The notes under the pieces were generated by a model. That model was not told the origin of the DNA, made no database searches, and was given only the letters and a program-made list of their open reading frames with translations. Of a stretch of 5,730 bases of DNA, positions 41-5,730 are shown in pieces. The translations under genes were made by a program, and so were the position numbers. Source of the DNA: Methanomethylovorans sp. (GTDB lineage: Archaea; Halobacteriota; Methanosarcinia; Methanosarcinales; Methanosarcinaceae); NCBI GenBank assembly GCA_020854785.1, contig JAHFZE010000044.1, forward strand, positions 1 through 5,730. Reading direction: 5' to 3'. Within the stretch, counting starts at the first letter, position 1, and the number at the start of each line of letters is the position of its first letter.

Positions 41-1381
41 TTAATTACCTTCTTTCTTTTTCCTGTAGTGCGAAAGAACCCCTAATTTAGTGATAATAGC
101 AGGACAATCACCGTACTTTTTCCTGTAATACACAATAGATCCTGCCCCCAAGATGCCTAATACCAGAGCTATGGACGTATAACTGGAACTGGATGAGCTC
201 TTACCTCGTGCACCCGGCCCCATTGATGCAGTAGTTGTTGCCAAGCTGCTCTGCTTGATCGGAACAGATTTCTGCACGCTGTTCCTCTGACCTGAGGAAT
301 CTGTGTACTCTATGAGGACTTTGAGATCTTCATTAGAACTTGCATTAGTGAACGAAGCTGGAGCTACAGTTCCTTTGCTGCCTGGCTCACCAGCAGCACT
401 AGTTGGCATGGTTCCTGCTCCCTGTTGTGAAACGATGAATGAGGCAATCGTATAATCGCCTTTTTCGAGGTTACCGACGATGGAAGAGGAGCTGCCTGAT
501 ACGCTATAACCATCCTGTTCCGGTATCGAGACTTTTACTGAATATGCTTCATTGTTACCTACATTAGCTATTGAGAACGATATCTCCCCATCAGAATTGT
601 CTGAGAACGCCACATCAAAATCAGTCCCTCCGCCAACGAACAATCCCGCAGTTGTTGATATGGTGCTTAGGTTGGAATCATAGTCCTCTAATTTGAGTGT
701 GATGTCCAGCTGGTAAAGACCCGGATCGGCATTCACATCTGCCATCACTATATAGCTTACAGTTACAGATCCATTGGGATCCAGATAGCTGATGTATTTA
801 GTATTGTCAGAGTAGACAGGCAGGATTGTACCAGTGGCATCCACCCAGGAGATCTGCATGTTCTTCAAAGGCGAACTGCCGGTATTTGTAATGACAAGAT
901 CAAGTTGCTCCTCAGTTGCGAAGTCGATACTTGACTTGCTGATCGTCACGATCTGAGCATATTCCTTTCCTCTTACTTCAATATCCAGGATAGTGATTTT
1001 GGTAGTCCCTGTGGAATCCGTTGTTACTATGTCCAGCTCGTATGTGCCTGCTGGTACATCACTGGCCACCTTTAGTTTTAATTTCACTATCGCAGCATCA
1101 TCCTGTCTTGCATTGAGATAGGATATTGTCCTGGTCAGAGATTCACCATCTAACTGTGAGAAAGGGTACTCAGGTTGTGCAGTTACAACTATGTTCTTTA
1201 GATCTTCATTCCCGAAGTTCTGCAGACTGAGGGTCAGTTCAACGCTCTCGCCTGGTCTTGCAGGATTGGGTGTCTGGCTTATAATACCAACGTTGGACGC
1301 AGCAGAGTCCACATAGGTTGCTGCGGATGCATAAGATGTAAAAAATAATATAAAGAGTACAAAAAATAGCATTTTTTTCAT
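41..1381 (-). CDS. COG1361-like membrane-anchored surface protein of an ABC operon
   Basis: A 446-residue exported protein. It begins with a signal peptide (KK, then a Phe/Leu-rich core, probable cleavage after ASA at residue 20). Three Ig-like, NEW3/CARDB-style beta domains follow at about 28-137, 140-250 and 253-380; the first shows the pattern PGESVELTLSLQNFGNEDL, the second LDLVITNTGSSPLKN. A Ser-rich stretch (about 393-402) leads to one membrane helix (about 403-418) and a basic cytoplasmic tail ending RKKKEGN. The ATG at 1381 is chosen over a GTG at 1390 because that GTG lies within the likely ribosome site AGTGAT (1386-1391). Only 10 bases separate it from the ATPase gene. COG1361 proteins often accompany MacB-like ABC genes in methanogens; here it may be the extracytoplasmic partner of the transporter (inference). 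It could instead be an S-layer-associated protein. Several Asn-X-Ser/Thr sites suggest glycosylation. Confidence 0.85.
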   Translation of the reverse strand: MKKMLFFVLFILFFTSYASAATYVDSAASNVGIISQTPNPARPGESVELTLSLQNFGNEDLKNIVVTAQPEYPFSQLDGESLTRTISYLNARQDDAAIVKLKLKVASDVPAGTYELDIVTTDSTGTTKITILDIEVRGKEYAQIVTISKSSIDFATEEQLDLVITNTGSSPLKNMQISWVDATGTILPVYSDNTKYISYLDPNGSVTVSYIVMADVNADPGLYQLDITLKLEDYDSNLSTISTTAGLFVGGGTDFDVAFSDNSDGEISFSIANVGNNEAYSVKVSIPEQDGYSVSGSSSSIVGNLEKGDYTIASFIVSQQGAGTMPTSAAGEPGSKGTVAPASFTNASSNEDLKVLIEYTDSSGQRNSVQKSVPIKQSSLATTTASMGPGARGKSSSSSSYTSIALVLGILGAGSIVYYRKKYGDCPAIITKLGVLSHYRKKKEGN

Positions 1382-1391
1382 AAATATCACT

Positions 1392-2129
1392 TTAATTATT
1401 TTGTTTTTCGTCTATTGACTCCACCATTCCGTCCTTGATGTGGACAACTCGCTCAGCATATCTGACAAGGGAAACGTCATGTGTCACAATGATGACCGTT
1501 TTTCCTTCTTTCTTGTGCAGACCATGCAGAAAATCAAGAATATATGTCCCGGTTTTGCTGTCAAGGTTGCCTGTGGGTTCATCAGCCAGTATTATATCAG
1601 GGTCTACAGCCAGTGATCTGGCAATAGCAACCCTCTGCCTCTGACCTCCTGATAACTGGGAAGGAAGGTTACGAGCTTTTTCAGATAGTCCTACAAGATC
1701 CAACAGCTCTGTTGCCTTCTTTTTTGCGAGAGAGGGGTCTATGTTCTGGAACTCCAGAGGAAGCATGACGTTTTCTAGAGTGTTCAATGTAGGAATAAGG
1801 TTGAACTGCTGGAAAATGAAACCTATCATCCTTCCCCTTATGGTCGCAAGTTCGGATTCCGAAAGATGTGAGATGTCTTTCCCGTTGAGAAAAACATTAC
1901 CTTTGCTCGGGAGGTCAAGGCAGCCGAGCAGGTTCATCATAGTGCTTTTACCGCTGCCGCTTGGACCCAGTATGACCACGAATTCGCCTTTAAAGATATG
2001 CAGGTCAATGCCCTTCAAAGCTGCAAATTCCACTTCTCCCATCTGGTAGACCTTCCACACATCCTCAAGTATGAGGAGAGGGGATGGATCGATCGGTTCT
2101 GTAGAGACTCCAGCAAGATAAGCCGACAT
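1392..2129 (-). CDS. ABC transporter ATP-binding protein, MacB/LolD type
   Basis: The ATPase subunit of a lipoprotein/macrolide-export-like ABC system; it hydrolyses ATP on the cytoplasmic face to drive an FtsX-like permease. In the 245-residue product the Walker A motif GPSGSGKST is at 55-63, the Q-loop FQQFN near 107, the signature LSGGQ at 159-163, Walker B ILADE at 180-184 (Glu184 catalytic), the D-loop NLD next, and the switch histidine in VTHD at 217. All catalytic residues are present. LGCLDLPSKG and ADEPTGNLDS are typical of the MacB/LolD subgroup. The ATG at 2129 is preferred to one 11 codons upstream (2162): AAGGAG at 2137-2142 is seven bases from it, whereas a CCCCTTC run precedes the upstream ATG. 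It follows the 48-codon ORF and precedes the surface protein gene by 10 bases, so it is operonic. Substrate unknown. Confidence 0.95.
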   Translation of the reverse strand: MSAYLAGVSTEPIDPSPLLILEDVWKVYQMGEVEFAALKGIDLHIFKGEFVVILGPSGSGKSTMMNLLGCLDLPSKGNVFLNGKDISHLSESELATIRGRMIGFIFQQFNLIPTLNTLENVMLPLEFQNIDPSLAKKKATELLDLVGLSEKARNLPSQLSGGQRQRVAIARSLAVDPDIILADEPTGNLDSKTGTYILDFLHGLHKKEGKTVIIVTHDVSLVRYAERVVHIKDGMVESIDEKQNN

Positions 2130-2136
2130 AATATGG

Positions 2137-2142
2137 CTCCTT
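2137..2142 (-). promoter_or_regulatory. Shine-Dalgarno site that fixes the ABC ATPase start
   Basis: AAGGAG on the minus strand, seven bases before the ATG at 2129. It overlaps the TAA stop (2141-2143) of the upstream 48-codon ORF, so a ribosome finishing that ORF stands on this site. It lies downstream of the alternative ATG at 2162 and therefore argues against the longer ATPase start. Confidence 0.8.
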
Positions 2143-2287
2143 ATTTTGTATCGTTGCGACATGAAGGGGAAGAAGATGGAACGTGCTCTGAACTATTTGA
2201 AAGGCTTTTCATCATGTTCCACATCAATAGGTTGAACTGCCTTCTATCAAGAACATTGTAATGCCTGAAACCGTACTTTTTATTCAT
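2141..2287 (-). CDS. Small 48-residue ORF upstream of the ABC ATPase
   Basis: I do not recognise this protein. It starts MNKKYGFRHYNVLDRRQ, is basic and aromatic in its first half (NLLMWNMMKSL in the middle) and Ser/Pro-rich at the end (SSSPSC), with no signal peptide or membrane helix. A ribosome site GGAG (2295-2298) lies seven bases before the ATG. The TAA stop overlaps the AAGGAG site of the ATPase, the layout expected for coupled translation. A strong AAGGAGG site with an ATG 33 bases upstream is in the same frame but is closed after two codons. It could be a genuine small protein, a leader peptide that delivers ribosomes to the ATPase start, or a chance ORF. It overlaps the discarded longer ATPase start in another frame. 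Confidence 0.5.
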   Translation of the reverse strand: MNKKYGFRHYNVLDRRQFNLLMWNMMKSLSNSSEHVPSSSPSCRNDTK

Positions 2288-2311
2288 GTTGTTTCTCCAG
2301 ATACTTCGAAT

Positions 2312-2320
2312 TTAATTCAT
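2312..2320 (-). other. Two-codon minimal ORF (ATG AAT TAA) behind a perfect SD
   Basis: On the minus strand AAGGAGG (2329-2335) is followed after eight bases by ATG AAT TAA. This is the best ribosome site in the intergenic region, yet it leads to an immediate stop. The ATG is in the same frame as the 48-codon ORF at 2287, with only this TAA between them. It could be a minimal leader ORF, a former N-terminus closed by mutation, or coincidence. Confidence 0.35.
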
Positions 2321-2328
2321 GAACAGAT

Positions 2329-2371
2329 CCTCCTTGAAGGAGGCATCCACGAGAGAGTGAGATGCCTCCTT
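2329..2371 (-). promoter_or_regulatory. Mutually exclusive hairpins around an SD sequence
   Basis: Read on the minus strand, AAGGAGGCATC (2371-2361) pairs perfectly over 11 bases with GATGCCTCCTT (2347-2337), and GTG/CAC may add three inner pairs after a bulge. The same CCTCCTT is also a perfect inverted repeat of the next AAGGAGG (2335-2329), one base away, giving a short CCTCC/GGAGG hairpin. The two pairings cannot coexist. The distal AAGGAGG is the ribosome site of the two-codon ORF, so the long stem would expose it and the short stem would hide it. The repeats are plain in the sequence; the switching role is inferred. Confidence 0.55.
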
Positions 2372-2377
2372 TCACTC

Positions 2378-2398
2378 CTTTGTGTGATCACACACAAG
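2378..2398. repeat. Palindrome centred on TGATCA
   Basis: TGTGTGATCACACA (2381-2394) is a perfect 14-bp palindrome. After one unpaired C at 2395 the arms extend by three more pairs, out to 2378 and 2398. It could be a dimeric regulator's operator or a hairpin in the structured leader. It lies between the two larger inverted repeats. Confidence 0.55.
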
Positions 2399-2415
2399 AG
2401 ATAGGGGCTGTGTTG

Positions 2416-2453
2416 GGTGGTACACCTGCCAAAGTTCCTGGCAGTAAACCACC
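2416..2453. repeat. GC-rich two-part hairpin next to the promoter
   Basis: On the plus strand GGTGGT (2416-2421) pairs with ACCACC (2448-2453), and inside it CTGCCA (2426-2431) pairs with TGGCAG (2439-2444) around a seven-base loop; the internal loop has four and three bases. All 12 pairs are Watson-Crick. On the plus strand it is followed by a T-rich run (ATTTTGTATTTTAT), so it could also end a plus-strand transcript. On the minus strand it would open the ABC leader, if transcription starts upstream of it. Confidence 0.55.
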
Positions 2454-2460
2454 ATTTTGT

Positions 2461-2486
2461 ATTTTATAATAAAAACATACTTAAAG
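2461..2486 (-). promoter_or_regulatory. Candidate TATA boxes for the ABC operon
   Basis: Two TATA-like elements read on the minus strand: TTATAAAA (2462-2469), predicting a start near 2440 inside the GC-rich hairpin, and the weaker CTTTAAGTAT (2477-2486), predicting a start near 2456 just before the hairpin. The first matches the archaeal consensus better; only the second would transcribe the whole structured region. A transcript start has to be measured to choose. Confidence 0.4.
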
Positions 2487-4636: not shown

Positions 4637-4644
4637 AATATAAA
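4637..4644 (-). promoter_or_regulatory. TATA box for the lipoprotein/regulator unit
   Basis: TTTATATT on the minus strand. The usual archaeal spacing of about 25 bases puts the transcript start near 4612-4616, giving a leader of roughly 75 bases that includes the 21-bp palindrome. Confidence 0.45.
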
Positions 4645-4978
4645 TATGCTTGAGAAACTTTTATCTGATAGTTAGAATATAAAACAAATATACTATTATC
4701 TATAGTTTTTTTTAACAATGAAGCTTTACAAGAGGTTTTTAAGTAAATATACCTTACACTTTGGCTTCAATAGAAAATTGAATCATATTAAGTTCTTAAT
4801 AAAACTTTTAAGTCTCTTTGAATCTATTATAAGTAATAAAGATCAATATAATTGCCTTATTTTAAAGAAAATGTGTTTTTATACATATACATCTAATTGA
4901 TTAATTATTTTGTATATTTTAAATATATTTTGGATAGATTTTTTTTAAAAATAAAGAACAAGGTGACCTATAGCAATA

Positions 4979-5018: not shown

Positions 5019-5043
5019 TAATTCCTTTAGAGACTAAGTATCC

Positions 5044-5051
5044 TTATATAA
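5044..5051 (+). promoter_or_regulatory. TATA box for the repeat-protein gene
   Basis: TTATATAA on the plus strand, predicting a transcript start near 5073 and a leader of about 60 bases to the TTG at 5132. It fits the archaeal consensus and stands at the point where AT-rich DNA gives way to mixed sequence. Confidence 0.45.
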
Positions 5052-5131
5052 TTCTCAGGGAATGCAGGATTGGTTCCAACGATAAACTGGTTGGGCACAA
5101 AGAATTGGGAGGAAATCATACGCAAAGGAAA

Positions 5132-5730
5132 TTGACAAGATCCATAGCAGTCTTTTCAGTGACTTTGATGGTTATATGCCCAGTACCATCCACTTTCGCT
5201 GTGCAGGACAATGGCCAGAAACACGATCTTAATAGAGCGATACATGAGAAAATGGATACATTGGGAACAGCAAGTTTCTCTATAGACAATTCAGCTTTAG
5301 AAATCCGGCAGGAAAAAATGCTGGAGCAAATAAATGATACGATTTCATTTATAGAGTTTTCAATGACCGGTTCACATGAGCCGAATGATGCGAACATCAC
5401 GGCAGAAATGCTGGCTGATGTAACCACACAACTGAAGGAAGCAAAAACACTGGTAGAGAACGCAGAAGATAAAAAGGATCTCAAAGAAGCAACGGAAATG
5501 GTCCATTCAGCAATGGAAACACTTGGAATGGGACCAGCCACAATGGACAAGCCAGAAGCTTTGCCTGAACATGAAACCTTCCAGACACAGCAGGAAAGAA
5601 TGCTGGAGCAAATAAATGATACGATTTCATTTATAGAGTTTTCAATGACCGGTTCACATGAGCTGAATGATGCGAACATCACGGCAGAAATGCTGGCTGA
5701 TGCAACCACACAACTGGAGGAAGCAAAAAC
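5132..5730 (+). CDS. Secreted repeat protein, non-ATG start, incomplete at the window end
   Basis: The frame is open from 5012 to the window end (199 codons from 5132) and reads as an exported protein: MTRSIAVFSV, a hydrophobic core, and a likely cut after STFA at residue 23. The mature part is acidic and helical, with a module at 60-106 (QEKMLEQINDTISFIEF...) that recurs at 154-199 with a 94-residue period. Asn-X-Thr sites (NDT, NIT) occur in each module. I do not recognise the family; surface coiled-coil is the best guess. No ATG lies in frame before the signal peptide; TTG at 5132 (or 5105) is the only usual alternative. The strong GGGAGG site (5107-5112) is 19 bases from TTG 5132, too far for normal use. 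It is well placed for ATA at 5118, but that frame stops after five codons. A lost start codon or a small frameshift is therefore possible. Confidence 0.75.
   Translation, partial: MTRSIAVFSVTLMVICPVPSTFAVQDNGQKHDLNRAIHEKMDTLGTASFSIDNSALEIRQEKMLEQINDTISFIEFSMTGSHEPNDANITAEMLADVTTQLKEAKTLVENAEDKKDLKEATEMVHSAMETLGMGPATMDKPEALPEHETFQTQQERMLEQINDTISFIEFSMTGSHELNDANITAEMLADATTQLEEAK
5308..5448 (+). repeat. Repeat copy 1 in the secreted protein gene
   Basis: This 141-base stretch matches 5590-5730 with four mismatches and no gaps, in frame, offset by 282 bases (94 codons). Upstream of 5308 the similarity ends abruptly. Confidence 0.9.
5590..5730 (+). repeat. Repeat copy 2, cut by the window end
   Basis: Second copy of the 5308-5448 module. 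The four differences change Lys to Arg, Pro to Leu, Val to Ala and Lys to Glu. Identity continues to the last base, so the true unit is longer and more copies may follow. Confidence 0.9.

Follow-up and report, generated by a model that had tools for sequence, protein, structure and literature searches.

The segment at 2329..2371 carries P3, the last of the three hairpins predicted for a conserved leader that stands before a small ORF and a MacB/LolD-type ABC operon in Methanosarcinaceae methanogens, and we tentatively favor the reading in which this leader acts as a translational gate. The segment lies on the minus strand of a 5,730-nt stretch of Methanomethylovorans DNA (the window, meaning the whole stretch that was analyzed). 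The three-stem anatomy is conserved among relatives and its stems covary in Methanolobus, and computed stabilities favor the folded form of P3. If the leader is transcribed, it would control the small ORF and the operon, and opening of P3 in response to a signal would lower initiation.

The genes on the minus strand of the window run in the order 4540-3593, 3596-2643, a gap, the 48-aa ORF, the ABC ATPase, and the secreted or membrane protein, and the segment 2329..2371 sits in the gap (Table 1). The ABC ATPase is 82-88% identical to its relatives in the genus, and at locus L040 of Methanolobus a MacB_PCD/FtsX permease follows the gene of the secreted or membrane protein. Over its first 31 codons the 48-aa ORF has a dN/dS of 0.12-0.32 (six members; 10 of 15 pairs with unsaturated dS), and neither NCBIfam (E 0.001) nor Pfam (E 1) gave a match for it. 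A motif resembling RKLxxEQMxRLxxIS is common to several of the small ORFs in Methanolobus (2478-2645 in L055, 1242-1439 in L040, and others), some of which have DFxW at their end; the three that were tested gave no Pfam match better than E 0.13.

Table 1. Parts of the leader and neighboring genes in the window
Feature	Position	Strand	Basis or remark
Promoter-like element AAGTATGTTTTTATTATAAAAT, TATA region	2461..2482	-	Kept in relatives; motif match with 0 mismatches
Hairpin P1 (core)	2422..2446	-	Fold and alignment
C/A-rich linker ACCACCCAACACAGC	2407..2421	-	Identical in 6/6 genus leaders
Hairpin P2, CTC.TTGTGTG..CACACAAAGGAG	2375..2400	-	Fold and alignment
Hairpin P3: arm 1 AAGGAGGCATC (2371-2361) and arm 2 GATGCCTCCTT (2347-2337)	2337..2371	-	Fold and alignment
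SD2 AAGGAGG, 1 nt past arm 2, able to pair with CCTCCTT 2343-2337	2329..2335	-	Sequence, fold
Two-codon ORF ATG AAT TAA, downstream of SD2	2312..2320	-	Not conserved (genus alignment)
SD3 GGAGA, presumed RBS for the 48-aa ORF	2294..2298	-	GGAG/GAGG 6-7 nt before the start in 6/6 leaders
Conserved small ORF, 48 aa, MNKKYGFRHYNVLDRRQFNLLMW...	2141..2287	-	Six members
ABC ATPase, LolD/MacB-like, ATG 2129 after AAGGAG	1392..2129	-	Best NCBIfam matches below cut-offs
Secreted or membrane protein with NPCBM-associated/CARDB domains	41..1381	-	Domain search
Membrane protein with DUF7343 end	3596-2643	-	Domain search
Protein without Pfam match	4540-3593	-	Pfam search

The initial annotation described three words on the minus strand, AAGGAGG (2371-2365), CCTCCTT (2343-2337), and AAGGAGG (2335-2329), with the middle one able to pair with either of the others, and this order and these coordinates are correct. 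The 11-pair first stem is also as described: AAGGAGGCATC pairs without interruption with GATGCCTCCTT (2371-2361 with 2347-2337), and CAC/GTG pairs added to it give a 33-nt P3 hairpin of -21.5 kcal/mol in RNAfold. The tight hairpin of the last two words can be drawn with at most 6 pairs and a 3-nt loop at -7.3 kcal/mol, and its extended form reaches -12.5 kcal/mol in folds once arm 1 is blocked. The window can thus be drawn with either of two mutually exclusive helices that have one arm in common. The last AAGGAGG had further been read as a ribosome site near an ATG. The 8-nt spacer to the ATG at 2320-2318 is there, but this ATG opens ATG AAT TAA and is therefore not the start of the ABC gene or of any conserved ORF; in the window, SD2 leads to these two codons and not to a real downstream gene that its sequestration could silence. 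CCTCCTT had also been likened to the 3' end of archaeal 16S rRNA; a search for SSU rRNA in the window's assembly (76.5% complete) found none.

Could SD-like purine words simply be complementary by chance? Genome-wide, the bare triple is about as frequent as a reversed-pattern control (6 matches vs 5 in the six genus genomes) and so is not enriched at that scale, and three of the six matches are instances of this leader. Nevertheless, coincidence is very improbable, being disfavored already by the conservation of P3: the hairpin is accompanied by a purine-rich word at the SD2 position in 6/6 leaders of the genus. Moreover, the triple GGAGG..CCTCC..GGAGG arose in 1/3000 shuffles of the leader and 0/300 shuffles of the window, and the stretch 2287-2460 folds more stably than its own shuffles (z -4.4).

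Six leaders from 4/6 Methanomethylovorans genomes could be aligned, three of them from one genome (G069); the search of the six genomes found no match to the leader in G067. All six leaders retain P1, the linker ACCACCCAACACAGC, P2, and P3, apart from L012, in which the promoter and the sequence of P1 are missing. The three stems together have 93.9% of cells paired and both-side changes at 3/34 pairs (reached by 7 and 27 of 500 shuffles). All three of these pairs belong to P1 and P2; P3 has 98.6% of cells paired and no both-side change, and for lack of compensatory change the covariation within the genus neither proves nor refutes P3. The other five leaders have no ATG or GTG 5-12 nt after SD2. 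Three loci depart from the common arrangement. The second copy in G069 (L012, 1480-1800) has no similarity to the promoter and P1, and its likeness begins at GTACCACCC; the third (L013, 1499-1870) has promoter, leader, and small ORF, with no ABC match in the remaining locus, which stops at the contig end. In G066 (L006, 1499-1600), promoter and P1 join the secreted-protein gene directly, with no full linker, P2, P3, small ORF, or ABC gene.

In an alignment of 26 Methanolobus leaders, the same three stems have 97.7% of cells paired, compared with 39-46% in slid registers, and both-side changes occur at 14/32 pairs. The both-side cells number 70, vs 26.5 in shuffles; pairing, both-side counts, and the covariation score were reached by 0/500 shuffles, and the pair-type count was reached by 30/500. 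P3 covaries in this alignment, in contrast to the alignment of the window's genus. On comparative grounds, the 14 compensatory pairs are strong evidence for an RNA structure. In Methanolobus these covarying stems lie 5' of the same genes as in the window, whose own leader is linked to them through synteny and anatomy. Two leader copies are found in each of 12 Methanolobus genomes searched; on one contig the copies lie ~2.5-2.9 kb apart, one before the ABC operon and one before the neighboring operon.

A covariance model of the leader (R1) had matches in 20/111 genomes of the family, in three genera. Its 35 matches comprise 27 at ≥121 bits in 14 Methanolobus genomes, the training sequences of the model included, and 8 at 22.7-44.5 bits, one of which is antisense to a leader, like the artefacts that the P3 palindrome produces; the matches of 44.5 and 34.3 bits come from one genome of another genus, outside model building. 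At the order level (E 0.001), 18/185 genomes matched, all of them Methanosarcinaceae. R1 did not match the window's own leader or L005, and other Methanomethylovorans copies scored 12.6-23.2 bits, compared with up to 28.4 bits for antisense P3-palindrome artefacts. The window's tie to the Methanolobus family thus rests on synteny, the promoter, and the order of the parts. Rfam (version 15) gave no match over the leader where searched: in the window (E up to 5), a single unrelated match below threshold lay elsewhere; eight loci at the gathering threshold yielded only HEARO and tRNA outside the leaders; and L040 900-4200 (E up to 5) had three sub-threshold matches, none of them in the leaders. 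In G081, which belongs to another genus of the family, probably Methanosarcina, two leader copies (L118, 4300-4545 and 6950-7190, minus strand) stand before unrelated genes, namely, those for an Lcl_C protein and for a small membrane protein beside a 607-aa ORF. Neither copy has a clear SD right after P3, and the leader module can therefore exist without an SD partner.

For comparisons that involve the SD, we used a set of 33 leaders: 6 from Methanomethylovorans, 5 from Methanolobus II, and, from Methanolobus I, 13 of ABC operons and 9 of neighboring operons. Leaders L053, L067, L069, and L107 are in the 26-row alignment (A2) and outside this set, as no small ORF with an SD was found for them; the leaders of Methanococcoides, Methanohalophilus, Methanosarcina, L025, L118, and L006 were too diverged or rearranged to be included. 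Alignment A5 was left out, as it contains antisense matches. The end of P3 lies 2-6 nt upstream of the first SD-like word in 28/33 leaders, a count that scores the misparsed L070 and L080 as misses. The initial proposal of a structured leader on the ABC operon, with the first stem and an SD immediately after it, is supported.

Where would the transcript begin? The promoter element AAGTATGTTTTTATTATAAAAT is aligned in 5/6 Methanomethylovorans leaders, L012 being the one from which it is absent, and AAGTATGCTTTTATTT or close forms of it precede the Methanolobus leaders. Related operons in Methanolobus, Methanohalophilus, Methanococcoides, and Methanosarcina likewise lie downstream of AAGTATGCTTTTATTT or a close form, and their leaders vary in length. 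From the conserved word at 2482-2461, we predict a transcript start near 2449-2444, on the 5' side of P1, and for this reason a start downstream of 2329, which would leave the paired words out of the transcript, looks unlikely.

A predicted 5' end at P1 is also what would be expected of an element of stability or processing, in which P1 at the 5' end and the later hairpins protect the mRNA without any switching. Long 5' UTRs are common in a related organism, Methanolobus psychrophilus, in which 24% exceed 150 nt (PMC5378194). We nonetheless regard this account as unlikely in view of what it leaves unexplained, namely, the sequence conservation of the linkers and the placement of the end of P3 just before the first SD-like word. 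Those linkers are at the center of another account, doubtful but somewhat better placed, in which the C/A-rich linkers are the functional parts, kept open by the hairpins for a protein or a G/U-rich small RNA to bind. The unpaired linkers are indeed strongly conserved, and their columns, like those of the P2 loop, rank among the unpaired columns with the highest conservation; ACCACCC or variants close to it are seen again in Methanolobus, and the similarity of L012 starts at GTACCACCC. Against a binding platform, no conserved exact 12-nt complement of the P2 loop or of the second linker was found elsewhere in 27 Methanolobus genomes, the 12-nt complements outside known leaders being 6 and 7 scattered sites, vs 10 and 9 for controls, and there is no candidate protein.

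In the gate that we favor, folded P3 would be the stable default and would leave the adjoining ribosome site open. As the last hairpin, P3 directly adjoins the 5' side of an SD, and its 3' arm contains CUCC/CUCU. With this anti-SD strand tied up in P3 next to the RBS, the site would be open by default, and melting of P3, or binding of its 5' arm or of the C/A-rich linkers, would free an anti-SD beside the RBS. Given that SD2 in the window serves only the two-codon ORF, the gate could affect the 48-aa ORF there only indirectly, and we speculate that such an effect could run through ribosome docking or reinitiation onto SD3. In folds of the full leader, the probability that the SD is unpaired is middling, 0.05-0.88, in 31/33 leaders (the L032 ABC leader and the L101 leader, in which the SD was not located, are excluded). 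More speculatively, and with low confidence, we posit an undescribed class of archaeal riboregulator: one three-hairpin leader that stands, in many Methanolobus genomes, before each of two neighboring envelope operons with a small protein apiece. The 3' strand of P3 would be a standing anti-SD, and capture of the C/A-rich linkers by a factor would let it close the ribosome site. Two further ideas were rejected. Single-sequence folds show the C-rich linker that precedes P3 in a basal pairing with the SD, but the consensus does not; an ORF from a GTG in the P3 loop joins the small ORF in L003, but in the other five leaders its frame ends after 9-19 codons, as judged by eye. A possible pairing of the P3 loop with SD3 was also noticed by eye.

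The initial annotation went further and inferred a regulatory SD/anti-SD switch. In such a switch, arm 2 would alternate between arm 1 (ON) and the SD (OFF) under the influence of a ligand or factor. Several observations fit it. The window and L003 have 7 consecutive arm 2:SD pairs. The five Methanolobus II leaders have the ATG of the small ORF 6 nt after the SD, such that the third arm is the RBS and a real gene stands behind the SD that would be sequestered; the longest uninterrupted arm 2:SD runs in these five are 11, 11, 8, 6, and 5 pairs, and two of the five have an SD copy, GGAGGCAUU, that repeats arm 1, GGAGGCAUC. (Run lengths are lower bounds in several leaders whose SD windows were short, L018 among them.) In L021 and L061, one U of arm 2 is bulged in P3 yet matches the SD arm. 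In each of three alignments, the alternative helix is paired above its slid registers: 77.8% vs 42-67% in the genus, 96% of cells vs 36-56% for the 10-pair helix of the five Methanolobus II leaders, and 63.8% vs 36-56% in the 26 Methanolobus leaders.

Compared with shuffles, however, the same helix does not stand out. The six genus leaders reach 77.8% against 79.7% in shuffles, with no compensatory change, and the 26 Methanolobus leaders reach 63.8% against 62.9%; both-side changes number 0 in the genus, 0 in Methanolobus II (where the helix lacks the variation by which to judge it), and 2 vs 2.3 shuffled in the 26 leaders. Covariation in relatives, which had been proposed as the check, therefore upholds the three stems in Methanolobus, P3 included, but not the alternative helix, and the two helices do not both covary. 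In addition, 4/6 genus leaders have only 4-5 consecutive arm 2:SD pairs, and the two states are not of comparable stability: in isolated folds, P3 is calculated to be more stable than the arm 2-to-start alternative in 33/33 leaders, by 9-23 kcal/mol (median gap, 15.3). A permutation test, with the parsing of L070 and L080 corrected, gave a complementarity of each arm 2 to its own SD above that to permuted ones over the 33 leaders (P 0.0006), with P 0.24 in the genus and P 0.28 in the 13 Methanolobus I ABC leaders. Control windows did equally well or better in 0/40 cases (all leaders), 2/40 (Methanolobus I+II), and 5/40 (Methanolobus I), and the signal is thus not clearly apart from controls; given these counts and the P values within groups, shared descent may explain the complementarity. 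We reject the switch as a general feature, consider it improbable as the explanation of the segment, and note that a lineage-restricted switch is a possibility. Arm 2 itself keeps UCUCU in 25-26/26 Methanolobus leaders while two partner columns vary A/G 18:8 and 16:10, and this invariance against drifting partners suggests a second constraint on arm 2.

To our knowledge, few cis-acting leader RNAs have been described in archaea. Bacterial translational attenuators and riboswitches are built from SD, anti-SD, and anti-anti-SD arms. The window has the same order of arms (SD-like, anti-SD, SD), but its alternative helix lacks covariation beyond shuffles, and neither an aptamer nor a stalling peptide was noticed. 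ROSE-type RNA thermometers hold the SD within a hairpin. Such thermometers are reported before bacterial ABC transporter genes (PMC12857270), and the leader resembles them in being a hairpin leader before an ABC transporter gene. In contrast to an SD within a meltable hairpin, the SD lies outside P3 in the consensus; in folds of single sequences it is partly paired. In archaea, the L7Ae autoregulatory leader is built on a kink-turn bound by L7Ae (PMC5539422, PMC6298567); it is likewise a structured 5' leader proposed for translational control and differs in its genes, and no kink-turn was noticed in the window's leader. For the hsp20 mRNA of M. psychrophilus, a predicted structure in the 65-nt 5' UTR buries the RBS (PMC5378194). 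That case belongs to the same family, whereas here the default hairpin would leave the RBS open and three hairpins are conserved. With these two precedents of proposed leader control in archaea, the kind is already known. No description of the three-hairpin leader was found among the papers listed in searches of the open-licence literature, and within these searches the element appears to be new. It pairs covariation in Methanolobus and the lack of an Rfam match with a conserved small protein that has no convincing Pfam match and lies before a MacB/FtsX-type exporter operon. Genetic tools exist for Methanosarcina acetivorans (PMC11409679), and the element would open translational control in archaea to testing in the family to which that species belongs.

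The promoter word recurs within the window. With one mismatch, AAGTATNNTTWTATT is found again at 4637-4651 (minus strand), before the 4540-3593 gene, and at 5036-5050 (plus strand), before the ORF that begins at 5105; at ≤2 mismatches the window has 4 matches in all, vs 0.56 expected. As far as a sequence motif can indicate, this recurrence suggests a shared regulon. Inside the ORF at 5105-5728 (plus strand), LEQINDTISFIEFSMTGSHE... is repeated almost exactly, and the frame continues past the contig end.
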